Shown: piece by piece, positions 19,355 through 31,251 of the stretch
How positions within the stretch are numbered: the first letter of the stretch is position 1
Layout: the number at the start of each line of letters is the position of its first letter
Source: Alphaproteobacteria bacterium
Lineage (GTDB): Bacteria; Pseudomonadota; Alphaproteobacteria; Puniceispirillales; Puniceispirillaceae
DNA: 37,578 nt
Reading direction: 5' to 3'
Assembly: GCA_011522945.1 (NCBI GenBank)
Contig: WTHY01000185.1
Location: 1 to 37,578 of the forward strand
Notes under the pieces: generated by a model
Seen by the model: the letters and a program-made list of their open reading frames with translations, nothing else
The model's database searches: none
What the model was told of the DNA's origin: nothing
Position numbers and translations under genes: made by a program

Positions 19355-20359
19355 TTAAAGCGGCAGACCAAGACGTTTTAGGATATCCTCAAATTCATCC
19401 AGAGACCGTACTGAAATTTTGATCGTGCCCCGCTCCGTATCCTCTTTCCAATCCAAGGCCATAGCTAACCCTAAATCTCTTTTTGCGCTATCTTCTAACG
19501 CTTTGATATCACTAGATTTATTAGAGGTGGCACTCATGGATGCTTTTTGTGGTATACCGAATTTTGCCAGCTTTTCTGCATCTCGTGCGGATAAGGATTT
19601 CTCTTTAACATAGCGGGCTAACATTGCCGCATTCTCATGACCAATTAATGGGCGTACCTGACCCATTGTAAGCTCTGCATTTGCCACCATCATCTGCACT
19701 GTCTCTGGCAGCGTTAGCAGGCGCATTAAATTAGTGATGTGAGGCCGAGATTTTCCAATAATTTCAGATAGTTCCTGCTGCGTATAGCCATGCATTTCAA
19801 TTAAGGTTTGATAGGCCTGAGCTTCTTCAATGACATGTAAATCACGCCGCTGAATATTTTCAATAAGCGCTATTTCCGACGCATCCTTATCACTCATATC
19901 TCGAATAAGTGCAGGAATTTCATGTAATTGTGCTATCTGGGCAGCACGCCAACGACGCTCACCGGCAATAATCTGATAACGACTTGGCTTATCCGGGTTA
20001 GGACGCACCAAAATTGGTTGGACAATGCCCTGTTGACGCATAGACGCTGCCAGTTCCTGAAGACCGTCTTGATCAAATACACGGCGCGGCTGCCAAGGTC
20101 CTGGATTTATCCATTCAACTGGTAGATTGCGAACAGCTGTACCTGTCATGCTGCTCGAATCTGCCGGCTGTGGAACAGGAGCTGGTTGTGCTTGAGGTGC
20201 CTGATCACCCAATGCAGCTGTAACAGCACTATCACCAAGCAAGCTGGACAGACCCCTACCTAAGCCCCTGTTGGTTTTCGCCGCTGCCTTTTTGGCTATA
20301 GTTTTTGGTTGGCTTTTTCCTGAGCCTGTTGCTGCCTGGCTTTTTTTTGCATCGCTCAT
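19355..20359 (-). CDS. parB: Chromosome partitioning protein ParB
   Basis: RGLGRGLSSLLGD; INPGPWQPRRVFDQDGLQELAASMRQQGIVQPILVRP; YQIIAGERRWRAAQ; HTH SEIIGKSRPHITNLMRLL. Confidence 0.97.
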   Translation of the reverse strand: MSDAKKSQAATGSGKSQPKTIAKKAAAKTNRGLGRGLSSLLGDSAVTAALGDQAPQAQPAPVPQPADSSSMTGTAVRNLPVEWINPGPWQPRRVFDQDGLQELAASMRQQGIVQPILVRPNPDKPSRYQIIAGERRWRAAQIAQLHEIPALIRDMSDKDASEIALIENIQRRDLHVIEEAQAYQTLIEMHGYTQQELSEIIGKSRPHITNLMRLLTLPETVQMMVANAELTMGQVRPLIGHENAAMLARYVKEKSLSARDAEKLAKFGIPQKASMSATSNKSSDIKALEDSAKRDLGLAMALDWKEDTERGTIKISVRSLDEFEDILKRLGLPL

Positions 20360-21138
20360 GCGACTTTCCTTTCCTGCTCAAGCACTTCTGCTGCCAGCGC
20401 GGCATAAGCTTGTGAGCCAGCACATTTAATATCATATATTAGCACAGGCTTGCCAAATGATGGCGCCTCTGAAATCCGGACATTTCTAGGAATGACAGTT
20501 TGATATACAATCTGCCCAAAATGATCACGTACATCACTTTCAACCATTTCAGATAGCTTGTTTCGGCTATCAAACATTGTCAGGACAATGCCTTGCATTG
20601 CTAAGTTTGGATTTAGGCCAGCACGAACCACATCCACTGTGCGCAATAATTGTGCCAACCCCTCCAATGCATAAAATTCACACTGTAAAGGTACCAGCAC
20701 AGAATCTGAGGCCGATAACGCATTAACGGTCAAAAGACCCAAAGAGGGCGGACAATCAATTAAAATATAGTCATAATGTCCACGGATAGCGTCTAAACCG
20801 CGCTTTAGATGATATTCACGTCCATCAACGGTACTTAATTCTACTTCAATAGCTGATAAATCCATCGTGGCCGGCACGAGATGCAGCCCTGGGACGATGG
20901 TTTCAAATAGACATATGGAAATATGTGCTTCACCTGTCAATAAACGATAGGAATTTGAGGTTCTGGCATGATCTGCCACGCCTAACCCTGTTGATGCATT
21001 ACCCTGCGGGTCGAAATCTACCAATAATACGCGTTTGCCGCAGGCAACAAGGGCTGTAGCTAAATTCACAGCTGTGGTGGTTTTACCCACGCCACCCTTT
21101 TGATTTGTTACAGCGATGATTTTCGTCTCAACAGACAT
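20356..21138 (-). CDS. parA: Chromosome partitioning ATPase ParA
   Basis: AVTNQKGGVGKTTTAVNLATAL; DFDPQGNASTGLG; YDYILIDCPPSLGLLT. Confidence 0.97.
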   Translation of the reverse strand: MSVETKIIAVTNQKGGVGKTTTAVNLATALVACGKRVLLVDFDPQGNASTGLGVADHARTSNSYRLLTGEAHISICLFETIVPGLHLVPATMDLSAIEVELSTVDGREYHLKRGLDAIRGHYDYILIDCPPSLGLLTVNALSASDSVLVPLQCEFYALEGLAQLLRTVDVVRAGLNPNLAMQGIVLTMFDSRNKLSEMVESDVRDHFGQIVYQTVIPRNVRISEAPSFGKPVLIYDIKCAGSQAYAALAAEVLEQERKVA

Positions 21139-21211: not shown

Positions 21212-21841
21212 TTAAGACGTAAATACCAATTCCAAAATCTGCCCATCATCTGAGCTAACAGACGGATAGGATCTGCTTTCTACTGTCGGCCAATCTTCTA
21301 AAATGGTCAATTCAGAAGTAACATTTCGGCCTTTTAAAAACACACATTTCAACCCCGGATGGTGCAGTGTGCGCGTCCAATCCAGCAATGTGCCCACAGG
21401 GGCAAGTGCCCGTGCCGTCAACACATCAATGTCTTTATGAGAGATTTTCTCAATCCGCATATTGTGAATTTCGGCTTTTGTTCCTGTTTCACGCAAGGCG
21501 GTGCGTAAAAAGGCACATTTGCGCTCATCTGACTCAACTAAATGCACTTCATGTGGCGTTGCAATTGCGAGCAAAAGTCCAGGTAGTCCTGCGCCTGTTC
21601 CAATATCCATAAGGCGGCTTGGTGTCTCTGGCAGATACGGTAATAGCTGGAGTGAATCAAGGATATGACGTTGCCATACCTCTCGCAAAGTTTGTGTAGA
21701 CACAAGATTGATCCGGGCCTGCCATTTGGCAAGCAGTTCAACATATATATGTAAACGGTCAATTGTTTCATGTGAAACATTGAGCTGGCCTAGCTCTGTT
21801 GCGACAGACGCAGCATTATCCATTTTCAAATATTTTGTCAT
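21212..21841 (-). CDS. rsmG: 16S rRNA (guanine527-N7)-methyltransferase
   Basis: RLMDIGTGAGLPGLLLAIA; location between parA and mnmG. Confidence 0.95.
   Translation of the reverse strand: MTKYLKMDNAASVATELGQLNVSHETIDRLHIYVELLAKWQARINLVSTQTLREVWQRHILDSLQLLPYLPETPSRLMDIGTGAGLPGLLLAIATPHEVHLVESDERKCAFLRTALRETGTKAEIHNMRIEKISHKDIDVLTARALAPVGTLLDWTRTLHHPGLKCVFLKGRNVTSELTILEDWPTVESRSYPSVSSDDGQILELVFTS
21764..21779. promoter_or_regulatory. parS-like ParB-binding site 1 (TGTTTCATGTGAAACA)
   Basis: 15/16 to TGTTTCACGTGAAACA. Confidence 0.8.
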
Positions 21842-21847
21842 AGGAAT

Positions 21848-23755
21848 TTAGCCATGTTTCTGCTGTTTGCTCTCAACATGGTTTGTATCTTGAGGCGCAT
21901 TACCCGTGCCACGCCGTATATAGCGAATGAGCGCAACGATTGCAGCTGGTGTCAGGCCAGCAATACGATTTGCTTGTGCAATCGTTTCAGGCGCATGTCG
22001 CTTCAGCAAATCCTGGCTTTCAGCAGATAGACCGCCAATCACGGTATAATCTATCGATTCTGGTATCAAAAGCGCCTCATCTCTGCGCATAGCAGAGATA
22101 TCAGCCTGTTGTCTGCGCAGATAGCCTGAATAGCGGCAATCTGTTTCTAGCTGACTGTGCAGATTATTGGGGATTGAGGCTAGATCAGGCCATATCGTCA
22201 TACAATCCTGAAGAGACACACCCTCCAACGATAAGAGATCAGCTGCAGATCGCTTTTTGCCATCTCTTGGCACAGGTAAATTATGTGCCTCCAAAATTGT
22301 TGGTTTAGCCGGGTCCTGTTGCAACATAAGACGCGCTGAGATAAGGGCTGCTTCCTTGTCACGCCAATGCGCCTCTCGCGATGCGCTTACAAGACCTATC
22401 TGTATAGCCTTATCTGTAAGGCGTTGGTCTGCATTATCAGCGCGCAATAACAAACGATATTCTGCACGAGATGTGAACATCCTGTAAGGCTCAGGCGCAC
22501 CTCTTGTGATTAAATCATCTATCATGACACCGATATAGGCATCAGCTCTATCCAAAATAAAGGGTGTGTCTGAGCCTGACACTGAGAGCGCTGCATTTAC
22601 ACCTGCCATAAGGCCTTGTGCAGCTGCTTCCTCATAGCCAGTTGTGCCATTAATCTGTCCAGCCAGATACAAACCTGGCAGTTTTTTTAACTCTAATGTC
22701 CGCTTTAAAGCACGTGGGTCAACGAAATCATATTCAATCGCATAGCCAAATTGCAGAATTTTTGCCTGTTCCAAGCCAGCAATTGACGCAATCATCTCTG
22801 ACTGTACATCACGTGGCAGGCTTGTACTTATGCCATTTGGATAGACGGTGTGATCATCAAGCCCCTCAGGCTCTAGGAATATCTGATGAGAGTCTTTTTC
22901 TGCAAAACGATGGATTTTATCTTCTATCGACGGACAATAGCGCGGGCCCTGCCCCTCGATTTGACCTGAATAGACAGCAGATAAATGCAATGATTGCTGA
23001 ATAATCTGATGTGTTTTTGTGTTTGTGCGCGTAATACCACATGGAATTTGTGGCACTGTGATCTTGTCTGTCATTGTTGAGAATGGCACAGGTGGATCAT
23101 CTGCATGCTGTTCTTCTAATGCAGCCCAATCTATCGTTCTGCCATCCAGACGTGCAGGCGTACCTGTTTTTAGACGCCCTACGGGTAGATCGAGCGCCCG
23201 AAGAGATTGTGCTAAAGTATTTGACGGTTTTTCACCAAAACGACCAGCTTCCGTCCGCTCTGGGCCAAGATGTATGATACCGCCCAGAAATGTGCCTGTA
23301 GTCAAAACCACAGCCCCTGCTGTTATAAGCCTGCCATCCTCCATAATGAGGCCAGCCACACGGCCATGTTTCACGTGAAACGCACCAACAGCAGCTTCAA
23401 TCACCTGGAGATTATCTTGCTCAGCTAATATATTTTGAATGGCATGACGATATAATTTACGGTCAGCTTGAGATCGAGGCCCCTGAACTGCAGGGCCTCT
23501 CGACTTATTCAAAACACGAAACTGGATACCAGCCCTGTCAATTGCACGCGCCATTATGCCGTCAAGTGCATCTATTTCGCGCACGAGATGGCCTTTCCCC
23601 AGCCCACCTATCGCTGGATTACAGCTCATTTCCCCGATTTTCTCTGCATCCATCGTGATCAAGGCTGTAGATGCACCAAGGCGTGCGGCGGCGGCGGCTG
23701 CCTCTGTGCCAGCATGGCCACCGCCAACAACAAGGATGTCAAAATCTTGTGCCAT
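21848..23755 (-). CDS. mnmG: tRNA uridine-5-carboxymethylaminomethyl(34) synthesis enzyme MnmG
   Basis: [63 protein letters not shown]. Confidence 0.98.
23367..23382. promoter_or_regulatory. parS site 2 (TGTTTCACGTGAAACG)
   Basis: 15/16 to canonical parS. Confidence 0.88.
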
Positions 23756-24361: not shown

Positions 24362-25726
24362 TCATTTTCCAATACAGAAGGCTGTAAATATATGGTCTAG
24401 CAGATCTTCAATATCCACATCTCCTGTTAGCCTGCCAAGCGCATCTGCAGCACGTCTATACTCTTCAGCTACTAGCTCAGGTGTAGATGTAACATCAAGC
24501 GACAGGGCATCAGTTAAGGCAGATACAGCTGTTTCAATTGCGTGCCTATGACGCGCCCGCGTTATAAGAGGGGCCTCTTCAGCTGACTGTAAATAGGATA
24601 GAGATTGCCACAAATAGGCCTCAAGCTTGGCAATATCCCTATCAGCATTAGCGCCACCAAGGGCTAGCAATAAAGCCTGTTCTGGCAAGTCTTGTATCTG
24701 CGCGTCAAGTTTATCAGCCTTATTTGCAATCACAATATGATCAGCTACACCCCATGCCAGAAGCGCCTGATAATGGTTTGGCCAGTCAGGATCGCTAATA
24801 TCCAAGACAATTATAACAAGATGCGCAGACCCTGCTGCAGCCTTGGCCCGCAAAATGCCCTCACCTTCTACAACATCATCTGTCTCACGATATCCGGCTG
24901 TGTCTCGTACTGTTACAGAAATGCCCTCAATATCAAGATGTACCTCAATCACATCTCTGGTTGTGCCGGCTTGATCAGAAATAATGGCCGCCGGCCGTTT
25001 TGCTAAGGCGTTTAGCGTGGTGGACTTACCTGCATTTACAGGTCCGATTAAGGCTATTTCCACACCGTCTCTGATAATTTCACCAACATGACCATCATCT
25101 AAATGTTGACCCAAAAGAGATAGGAGGCGCCTGGAAGTCTGCTGCAACCTATCCAAAATAGATGTTGGTAATTCTTCATCTGCAAAATCAATAATGGCAG
25201 CCAATTCAGCATTTAGAGCAATAAGAGATAAGCGCCACGCTTGTGCAGCTTTATGCAACACACCAGAAATTTGCCGACTTGCCTGACGTCTCTGCGATTC
25301 TGTATCAGCATCAATTAGATCAGCTAGCCCCTCAACTTCCGATATCGTCATTTTTCCATTATCTAGCGCCCGTCTGGAAAATTCGCCCGCAGCTGCTGGA
25401 CGATATTCATCAGCCTTTGCAAGTCTGTCTGTTATGGCTGCGATAACTGCCGGACTTCCATGACAATGTATCTCTAAAACAGCTTCGCCGGTTGGGCTAT
25501 TTGCCGCTGGAAATGACAGGCACATCACTTCATCAAGTACTGACCCATCATCAAGCTGTAATCTAACAAATCGCATTTCCCGATTATAGGATGGTTTCAC
25601 GTGAAACAAATCAAGTGCATCTAATGCGCTAGGACCACTTAATCTGATAATGGCAATTGCTGATCTACCTGGCGGTGTTGCAAGCGCGAAAATTGTTTCA
25701 GCTGATATGTCTTTATGTAATGACAA
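24362..25726 (-). CDS. mnmE: tRNA modification GTPase MnmE
   Basis: IFALATPPGRSAIAIIRLSGP; GPVNAGKSTTLNAL; DTAGYRETDDVVE; C-terminal FCIGK. Confidence 0.98.
   Translation of the reverse strand: MSLHKDISAETIFALATPPGRSAIAIIRLSGPSALDALDLFHVKPSYNREMRFVRLQLDDGSVLDEVMCLSFPAANSPTGEAVLEIHCHGSPAVIAAITDRLAKADEYRPAAAGEFSRRALDNGKMTISEVEGLADLIDADTESQRRQASRQISGVLHKAAQAWRLSLIALNAELAAIIDFADEELPTSILDRLQQTSRRLLSLLGQHLDDGHVGEIIRDGVEIALIGPVNAGKSTTLNALAKRPAAIISDQAGTTRDVIEVHLDIEGISVTVRDTAGYRETDDVVEGEGILRAKAAAGSAHLVIIVLDISDPDWPNHYQALLAWGVADHIVIANKADKLDAQIQDLPEQALLLALGGANADRDIAKLEAYLWQSLSYLQSAEEAPLITRARHRHAIETAVSALTDALSLDVTSTPELVAEEYRRAADALGRLTGDVDIEDLLDHIFTAFCIGK
25593..25608. promoter_or_regulatory. parS site 3 (GGTTTCACGTGAAACA)
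   Basis: 15/16 to canonical parS with the 14-bp core GTTTCACGTGAAAC perfect. Confidence 0.88.
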
Positions 25727-28903: not shown

Positions 28904-29923
28904 TTATTTGCCTCTTACTAACGATACTAATTTCGCCAAATGCTCAGGCGGTGTCGGTGGAGTTATGCCATGACCTAAATTAAAGATATGTGGTCGGTCT
29001 GAGCAGGCCTCTAATATAGCGTCTACAGCCTGTTCCATTTCTGGACCAGCAGACAAGAGTGATAAGGGGTCAAGATTTCCCTGCAATGCCATATGTGTTG
29101 GTAGTGTTTTAGCAGCCCATAGTAAATCAGTATTATGATCCACCGCTATTGCTTGGCAATCAACTCTATCAGCAAATGCAATGAGGCCTTCCCCTATTTG
29201 TTTGGGAAAATAAATAACTGGCTGCATAATGCCACGGGATCTCAAACCAGCAATAATTTTTTGCGCTGGCTCTATCACCATCATATTACGATGTGAGGCT
29301 GGTACAGCTCCTGCCCAGCTATCAAACAACATTAGCACATTCGCACCAGCTTCTGCCTGCACAGTTAAGAACTGAATGATCGCTTCAACTAATTGTTCTA
29401 ATAGTTTTTCTATGCCTGCCCTATCTGACCATAACCAGTTACGACAGGTTGCAAAATCTCTTGAACTGCCACCTTCTGCCATATAGGTGATTAATGTCCA
29501 AGGTGCACCGGAAAATCCTATAAGTGCCGTTTCTGACGGTAGATTTTGCCGTGTGAGACGAATAGCCTCTCCAACAGGTGCCCATTTATCAGGCAAACCT
29601 TCTAATAGATCATCTGATAAGGACCCAGCTGTTTCAAGAGGGGTTAATTTTGGACCATCACCTGTGATAAAATGTACATTTCGCTCCAAAGCCCATGGCA
29701 CCATAAGAATATCAGAAAAAATTATCGCTGCATCTAAACCAAACCGTCTAATAGGCTGAAGTGTTACTTCACTTGCTTTATCAGGCGTTAAGCAAAAGGA
29801 AATAAAATCTGTCGTTGTTGCCCTAACAGCACGATATTCCGCTAAATACCGTCCTGCCTGACGCATAACCCACATGGGTGGTGGTGTTATTTTCTGACCT
29901 GATAAAGTGTCGAGTAATTTCAT
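28904..29923 (-). CDS. hemE: Uroporphyrinogen decarboxylase
   Basis: PPPMWVMRQAGRYLAEYRAVR; IIFSDILMVPWALE; FNLGHGITPPTPPEHL. Confidence 0.98.
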   Translation of the reverse strand: MKLLDTLSGQKITPPPMWVMRQAGRYLAEYRAVRATTTDFISFCLTPDKASEVTLQPIRRFGLDAAIIFSDILMVPWALERNVHFITGDGPKLTPLETAGSLSDDLLEGLPDKWAPVGEAIRLTRQNLPSETALIGFSGAPWTLITYMAEGGSSRDFATCRNWLWSDRAGIEKLLEQLVEAIIQFLTVQAEAGANVLMLFDSWAGAVPASHRNMMVIEPAQKIIAGLRSRGIMQPVIYFPKQIGEGLIAFADRVDCQAIAVDHNTDLLWAAKTLPTHMALQGNLDPLSLLSAGPEMEQAVDAILEACSDRPHIFNLGHGITPPTPPEHLAKLVSLVRGK

Positions 29924-29939
29924 AAAGACCTCTTTATGC

Positions 29940-30417
29940 CTAGCCTGTCACACATTTATGAAAGGCTATTATAAATAAATATATATATATAATTTATTGT
30001 TGTTGTTTATATGTAGGGTGAAAATAGGGGATTACACTTATCTGCTAAACTTATCCCCATATTTTTACACAAAATTTTAAAATGATTTCCTTGGGATTGC
30101 TTGGTTTTAATCCTTAGTTATCAATATTTGAAGATATGGGTATAACTTTATTCATAATAGATATTTTTTGGGGATAATTATCGTAATTTGTGCGTAACTA
30201 GAGCTGCTCCGGCGTTTTATCCACATATATGTCGTGTCCTACAGCAAATAACCAATCATTATAAACAGTTCAGCTAAAGCTGTGTGTTTGAGGGGTAATA
30301 GATGACAAATATCCGGTTTTATAAACAGCCTATCACAAATCTACTTATATGAAGGTTTGTAGATAAAGCTAACGAAACAAGGATGACAGGCTTTTCCCTG
30401 ACTGCTACATCAATATC
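29940..30417. other. oriC: Predicted chromosomal replication origin (oriC)
   Basis: Between hemE and the DUF299/PPSR gene, as in Caulobacter Cori; AT-rich tract 29966-30010; DnaA box TTATCCACA 30217-30225 plus one-mismatch boxes at 30051, 30063, 30169(-), 30189(-), 30259, 30319 and 30358(-); flanking genes diverge. Confidence 0.9.
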
Positions 30418-31251
30418 ATGACTGATAAACCATTACATCTTCATCTCATATCAGACTCCACTGGCGAGACAGTGCATCAAACAGCCAGAGCAGCCTTGGC
30501 ACAATTCTCCGATAGGGATATCACCGAGCATATTTGGACACTTATCCGTTCTGTTCCACATGTGGATGCGTTTGAGAATTCACTACGGAAAAATCCGGGC
30601 ATTGTTTTATATTCTGTTGTTGATCCAGCTATCAGAAAAGAAATTGAAGATAGATGTAGACGCCATGCCGTGCCCTCCTTATCCATATTAGATCCGCTTG
30701 TTGATTTATTTTCATCTGTATTTGGTGAACAAAAACAACAAAGACCAGGTGCGCAACATCAGTTAGACCGTGCGTATTTTAAGCGTATGGCAGCCGTAGA
30801 ATTTGCGGTTAATCACGATGATGGCCTGAATATGAATAATGTGCATGAGGCTGACATATTATTAGTTGGTGTGTCTCGAACATCAAAGACCCCCACATCC
30901 ATGTATCTCGCTAATCGTGGCTACCGTGTAGCCAATTATGCATTAGTGCCGAATGTGCCTTTTCCGATTGAATATCTGGCAGATAAAAAGCCATTCGTCG
31001 TTGGTCTGACAACAGATCCAAAACGCTTAATACAGGTACGTCGCAACAGGCTTGAGCATATGCGTGACAAGCAAAACGTAAATTATGCAGATATGGATCA
31101 AGTCGCTGGTGAATTACGAGAGGCGCAACGCCTATTTGCTCGCAATAACTGGCCGGTATTAAATGTGTCTCGCCGCTCGATAGAGGAGACAGCTGCCTCA
31201 ATCATTCACTTATATACACAATCAATAGAAACAGCTGATGAAGACTCATAA
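30418..31251 (+). CDS. Pyruvate, water dikinase regulatory protein (PPSR/DUF299 kinase-phosphorylase)
   Basis: LHLISDSTGETVHQTARAAL; DILLVGVSRTSKTPTSMYLANRGY. Confidence 0.95.
   Translation: MTDKPLHLHLISDSTGETVHQTARAALAQFSDRDITEHIWTLIRSVPHVDAFENSLRKNPGIVLYSVVDPAIRKEIEDRCRRHAVPSLSILDPLVDLFSSVFGEQKQQRPGAQHQLDRAYFKRMAAVEFAVNHDDGLNMNNVHEADILLVGVSRTSKTPTSMYLANRGYRVANYALVPNVPFPIEYLADKKPFVVGLTTDPKRLIQVRRNRLEHMRDKQNVNYADMDQVAGELREAQRLFARNNWPVLNVSRRSIEETAASIIHLYTQSIETADEDS

Follow-up and report, generated by a model that had tools for sequence, protein, structure and literature searches.

In Caulobacter crescentus the chromosomal origin was mapped experimentally between hemE and a gene of the COG1806 (DUF299) group, and the origin of Rickettsia prowazekii lies in the same place (PMC1914354). 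Both are bounded by divergent genes and contain an AT-rich stretch and DnaA boxes, and in Caulobacter parS is found within about 8 kb of the origin (PMC1914354, PMC4468827). The opening of the duplex has been described in more distant bacteria. In the basal unwinding system of Bacillus subtilis, composed of DnaA boxes and DnaA-trios, Asn187 of DnaA captures the middle A of each trio, and a T or G at this position slows opening (PMC10721633). The unwinding element of Escherichia coli oriC carries TTATT and TTGT motifs on its upper strand (PMC10316083). The locus described here resembles the two alphaproteobacterial origins in its flanking genes, their divergence, its AT-rich stretch, its DnaA boxes and its nearby parS sites, and is compared with the Bacillus and E. 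coli systems below.

The window, which is the whole stretch of DNA analysed (37,578 nucleotides), is a single contig from the draft genome (208 contigs) of an alphaproteobacterium of the family Puniceispirillaceae. Its region of interest is the 494-bp gap (positions 29,924-30,417, 32% G+C) between hemE, encoding uroporphyrinogen decarboxylase (28,904-29,923, minus strand; NCBIfam TIGR01464, 363 bits, cut-off 303), and a gene for a ppsR-type regulator of COG1806/DUF299 (30,418-31,251, plus strand; NCBIfam NF003742, 318 bits, cut-off 225). The curated models thus back both gene identities and the divergent arrangement proposed in the first-pass annotation, whose analogy with the Caulobacter origin between hemE and the RP001/DUF299 gene also agrees with the literature (PMC1914354). 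Further to the right, curated models identified Maf, dephospho-CoA kinase and dnaQ, and to the left hemJ, rho, mnmE, mnmG, rsmG, parA and parB; the neighbourhood differs from the mnmG/mioC setting of the E. coli origin. We consider the gap to be the oriC of a SAR116-type alphaproteobacterium, with a probability of about 0.95; replication from it and DnaA binding within it are predictions. The placement of the family in SAR116 is our own reading, and Candidatus Puniceispirillum marinum IMCC1322 is a member of the SAR116 clade (PMC3368413).

The gap is the densest spot of the window for DnaA boxes. Ten boxes with at most one mismatch from TTATNCACA were found within it, compared with a window average of 0.61 per 494 bp and with 0.95 (sd 0.96) expected from dinucleotide shuffles of the gap, of which 0 in 1000 reached ten. 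The A+T content was 68%, against about 52-59% for 1-kb tiles across the remaining window. An AT-rich stretch, the proposed duplex-unwinding element, was read at 29,968-29,998 and has a counterpart at the same place in relatives; the stretch had been noticed before, with a start at 29,966 that was corrected here by two positions. All eight boxes of the first-pass annotation were recovered by a rescan at the same coordinates and strands, and two were added. On the hemE side, a tandem pair is formed by TTATCCCCA (30,051-30,059, plus strand) and TTTTACACA (30,063-30,071, plus strand), each with one mismatch and with a start-to-start spacing of 12. The two additional boxes, TTATACCCA (30,137-30,145, minus strand) and TTATTCATA (30,148-30,156, plus strand), also have one mismatch each, and are followed by a second TTATCCCCA (one mismatch; 30,169-30,177, minus strand), by TTACGCACA (one mismatch; 30,189-30,197, minus strand) and by the perfect box TTATCCACA (30,217-30,225, plus strand). 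Distal to these lie two weak copies of TTATAAACA (30,259-30,267 and 30,319-30,327, both plus strand) and the weak box TTATCTACA (30,358-30,366, minus strand). Most boxes of the gap are weak, with a perfect match in only one. That single perfect box is in itself unremarkable, since the window contains four copies of TTATNCACA and the genome 102, close to the 85 occurrences of a reversed-pattern control.

A sequence artefact that bears on box scans was also noted. The Tn5/Nextera mosaic-end adapter AGATGTGTATAAGAGACAG is present at the starts of contigs C7, C43 and C103 of this genome and at the end of C117, the dnaA contig (loci L209, L210, L212 and L213). Because it mimics a DnaA box (TTATACACA), it can yield spurious boxes where contigs terminate, and the neighbourhood of dnaA is one such place. 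The occurrence of TTATACACA at several contig ends was initially considered as a dispersed repeat near dnaA, and this was rejected as most copies belong to the 19-bp adapter.

The arrangement is conserved across the family. In a set of 61 genomes the ppsR protein was found in 52, and the gap could be read at 44 loci, at all of which (44/44) hemE and ppsR are divergent, with a median gap of 405 bp. These 44 gaps hold 211 DnaA boxes where 26.5 were expected. Twenty-four of the copies are TTATCCCCA, against 0.1 expected, and TTATCCCCA is thus a genuine variant box in this family; the Caulobacter-type box TGATCCACA, in contrast, is absent from the window gap. The family alignment revealed a common footprint, consisting of a tandem box pair 11-12 bp apart adjoining the AT-rich stretch, then an inverted box about midway along the gap and a direct box beyond it. 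The window boxes at 30,051, 30,063, 30,189 and 30,217 match the aligned positions of the family, with 30,189 aligning with the conserved inverted box TGTGNATAA and 30,217 with the conserved ATCCCCA position, whereas those at 30,259, 30,319 and 30,358 do not, the last being out of line with the boxes in most relatives. The window gap exceeds the family median by about 90 bp, and both TTATAAACA copies fall within about 90 bp of sequence that relatives are without. Their 60-bp spacing, pointed out in the first-pass annotation, is real; its interpretation as a designed repeat was ruled out, as it is unconserved and lies inside sequence missing from relatives. Judging from the alignment, not all of the listed boxes need be DnaA sites, the unconserved distal three in particular. 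In other alphaproteobacterial families, the same gene pair surrounds a similar gap at most loci.

The GC skew points to the same place. The cumulative minimum of the window is at 29,873, and in 1-kb tiles the skew turns sharply from negative to positive there; divergent transcription also contributes part of this local change. As the genome itself is a 208-contig draft, the nearest equivalent of the genome-wide skew check proposed in the first-pass annotation was run on G020 and G015 (2,753,527 bases), two family members with closed genomes, with twenty 12-kb samples per genome. The local minima, at 1,491,844 in G020 and 1,808,564 in G015, are inside the hemE-ppsR gap or less than 100 bp from it. 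In these samples the skew changes from negative to positive at the hemE-ppsR locus and back again some half a genome distant, within 148-273 kb in G020 and 302-435 kb in G015, which implies two arms of roughly equal size. Box density agreed with this position: among 598 sampled 400-bp tiles per closed genome the maximum was two boxes, and the origin stretches hold five and six.

The claim that the window spans both a replichore start and a centromere was likewise borne out, as parA and parB, together with three parS-like sites, are situated 4.6-11 kb from the gap. The parB gene (19,355-20,359, minus strand) was matched by TIGR00180 with 192 bits (cut-off 58). Adjoining it, parA (20,356-21,138, minus strand) encodes a ParA/MinD-type ATPase whose best match, NF041546, scored 113 bits, under the cut-off of 180. 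One parS-like site, TGTTTCATGTGAAACA, has one mismatch (21,764-21,779), and two are copies of the parS core GTTTCACGTGAAAC (23,368-23,381 and 25,594-25,607). In relatives, parS clusters are found 3.5-9 kb from the gap. The number of sites varies: two and three parS-like sites were counted in relatives G020 and G001, and 19 with at most one mismatch in G015 (18 of them perfect GTTTCACGTGAAAC), eight of which are near the origin and the others scattered round the chromosome.

Two other readings of the gap were weighed. Divergent genes require promoters, and some promoters are regulated by DnaA, so the gap could mainly be the divergent hemE/ppsR promoter region with DnaA acting as a transcription factor and the origin at another locus, such as dnaA. 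Against this stand the ten boxes within 494 bp, a gene pair kept class-wide and the skew minima that both closed relatives have at the gap. Moreover, dnaA is about 70-86 kb from the hemE-ppsR locus in relatives, and in the genome studied here it is on another contig, in a stretch where the box scan found no box cluster; a dnaA-linked origin was rejected on this ground. We regard the promoter explanation of the gap as very improbable.

It is even harder to credit that the box array is the relic of a former origin in a lineage that now initiates at a shifted or second site. The presence of only one perfect box would fit such a history, as would the triplet element described below and its inverted box, both degenerate relative to those of relatives. 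The sharp skew switch in the window and the adjoining parS cluster, however, indicate current or recent use, and the conserved box positions persist. The first-pass identification of the gap as the origin is supported by its flanking genes, by the skew minimum of the window and by the skew of closed relatives, and the gap probably serves as the sole origin of the chromosome.

Known regulatory sites of the Caulobacter origin were searched for in this oriC. Unlike in Caulobacter, the window gap contains neither the CtrA site TTAA-N7-TTAA nor an IHF consensus, the latter also being a difference from E. coli. Over the 44 family gaps, two CtrA sites were found against 2.4 expected and one IHF site against 2.2, the IHF figures coming from a consensus scan only; as sites of neither regulator are enriched, control of the origin by CtrA or IHF was rejected. 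The missing CtrA sites are unsurprising, since a review found them lacking in most other alphaproteobacterial origins (PMC4468827). The genome does encode two CtrA-like response regulators (contigs C17 and C118; loci L217 and L220), both with CtrA as the best curated match at a score below the model cut-off. The CcrM methylation motif GANTC is about five-fold scarce in the 44 family gaps (11 versus 53 expected), and genome-wide it stands at about 0.4-0.5 of expectation, so that depletion is stronger in the origins. CcrM control at the origin was rejected given this scarcity, which is partly a genome-wide depletion. The locus is best seen as an oriC of the ordinary alphaproteobacterial type, without CtrA or IHF consensus sites, at the place expected for the group.

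A further feature of the family gaps is a run of triplets in strict three-base phase, for example AGG TAG TTG TTT TAG TAG, which lies beyond the AT-rich stretch and before the first boxes. The run is made of TAG, TTG and TTT triplets and resembles the DnaA-trios of Bacillus, with T as often as A at the middle position. Just downstream, the inverted box TGTGNATAA was recognisable at 19 family loci, and in 17 of these 19 the spacer is exactly 4 nt, a count in which the loci are not independent because most come from a few related genera. A period-3 signal of G on the plus strand was confined to the hemE-side part of the gap (mean z of 1.7 for the family and of 1.3 for other alphaproteobacteria), with values of about 0 for the C control and at the far end. 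A run of at least three G[AT][AT] triplets no further than 16 nt from an inverted box was present in 19 of 44 family gaps compared with 0.8 in shuffled sequences; this pattern was planned as a register control and picks up the same triplet run in another frame. For canonical trios ([TA]A[GA]) the count was 5 of 44 gaps versus 1.6 shuffled, with 0 in the complementary control.

The order of AT-rich stretch, triplets and box TGTGNATAA in relatives is that of the B. subtilis basal unwinding system, and in both the triplets share a strand with TGTGNATAA. The differences from B. subtilis are the middle base, which is A or T in the family, the DnaA residue 187, which is Tyr for Asn, and the degenerate state of the element in the window. 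The TTATT and TTGT motifs of the E. coli element also occur in tttaTTGTTGTTGTTT of the window, in the same orientation to TGTGGATAA (PMC10316083); the strict three-base phase in relatives is unlike E. coli. In its location, strand and orientation the family run agrees with the E. coli element as well as with the Bacillus trios, the TTGT/TTATT motifs of the E. coli upper strand preceding TGTGGATAA. In the window, the element appears as the G-phased triplets TTG TTG TTG TTT (29,997-30,008) followed by an out-of-phase TAG, together spanning 29,997-30,016 on the plus strand; alignment and scans indicate a degenerate copy of the family element with a presumed function in opening. No inverted box was recognisable within 20 nt downstream of it. 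With its own copy degenerate and the inverted box unrecognisable, the window is a poor example of the element, and the argument rests on the relatives. Under the loose published NAN rule, which asks for at least three trios 3'-NAN-5' no more than 16 bp from a box, hits were obtained at the boxes at 30,137 and 30,189 and not beside the conserved element. This rule is trivially satisfied in AT-rich DNA, and since the sole TAG is out of phase, canonical DnaA-trios are unlikely in the window.

The middle base of the triplets was then set beside the DnaA residue that reads it in B. subtilis. Among NNG triplets of the family the middle base was A in 60, T in 62, G in 16 and C in 2, and in those of other alphaproteobacteria A in 31, T in 60, G in 15 and C in 7; in the family, therefore, the middle adenine of trios is not kept, A or T being used about equally. 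Tyr occupies the position aligned with Asn187 of B. subtilis in the DnaA of this genome and in 25 of 27 family proteins, the other two having Asn, and over 28 readable DnaAs across the class, L205 included, the residue is Tyr in 26, Phe in one and His in one. E. coli DnaA has Gln at the aligned position, and the DnaA of Thermotoga, an organism using TAG repeats, has Asn. The guanine-contacting residues are retained or conservatively replaced (Glu228 kept, Arg202 to Lys). The DnaA of this genome (contig C117, locus L035) also has the loop SADQSPHNL versus SADKSPTDL in nearly all family DnaAs. G025, one of the two family genomes with Asn187 and the one with a readable gap, carries TAG TTG TTT TAG at the same place. 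The pairing of residue and base is thus not strict, as G025 has Asn yet TTG and TTT among its triplets. Taken across very few independent events, the correlation suggests that guanine capture may have been kept and the check on the middle base relaxed. It is conceivable, though we lean against it, that alphaproteobacteria open their origins via a variant motif, in which G-phased triplets with a middle A or T would be read by a DnaA with Tyr187 where Bacillus and Thermotoga have Asn.

Initiation at this locus could proceed as follows. DnaA would bind the conserved boxes, namely the tandem pair at 30,051 and 30,063 together with those at 30,169, 30,189 and 30,217, and would oligomerise toward hemE to melt the AT-rich stretch at 29,968-29,998. 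It might then capture the upper strand at the G-phased triplets (29,997-30,016), which would permit helicase loading and then bidirectional replication. The new origins would be separated by ParABS acting at the parS sites 4.6-8.5 kb away.

These results locate the origin, and with it the centromere region, in a marine lineage that is abundant, which is of use when growth is estimated from coverage (ori/ter) and when draft genomes are to be oriented. Why the single-strand motif recognised by DnaA differs between bacteria is a question raised previously (PMC10316083), and residue 187 in combination with the middle base of the triplet offers a testable hypothesis for these differing preferences. 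A survey of DnaA-trios explicitly expected deviant trios without a middle A (PMC8287927). If the proposed motif is true, these predicted deviant trios would gain a concrete, class-wide case, and the variant would bridge the TAG trios of Bacillus and the TTGT motif of E. coli.
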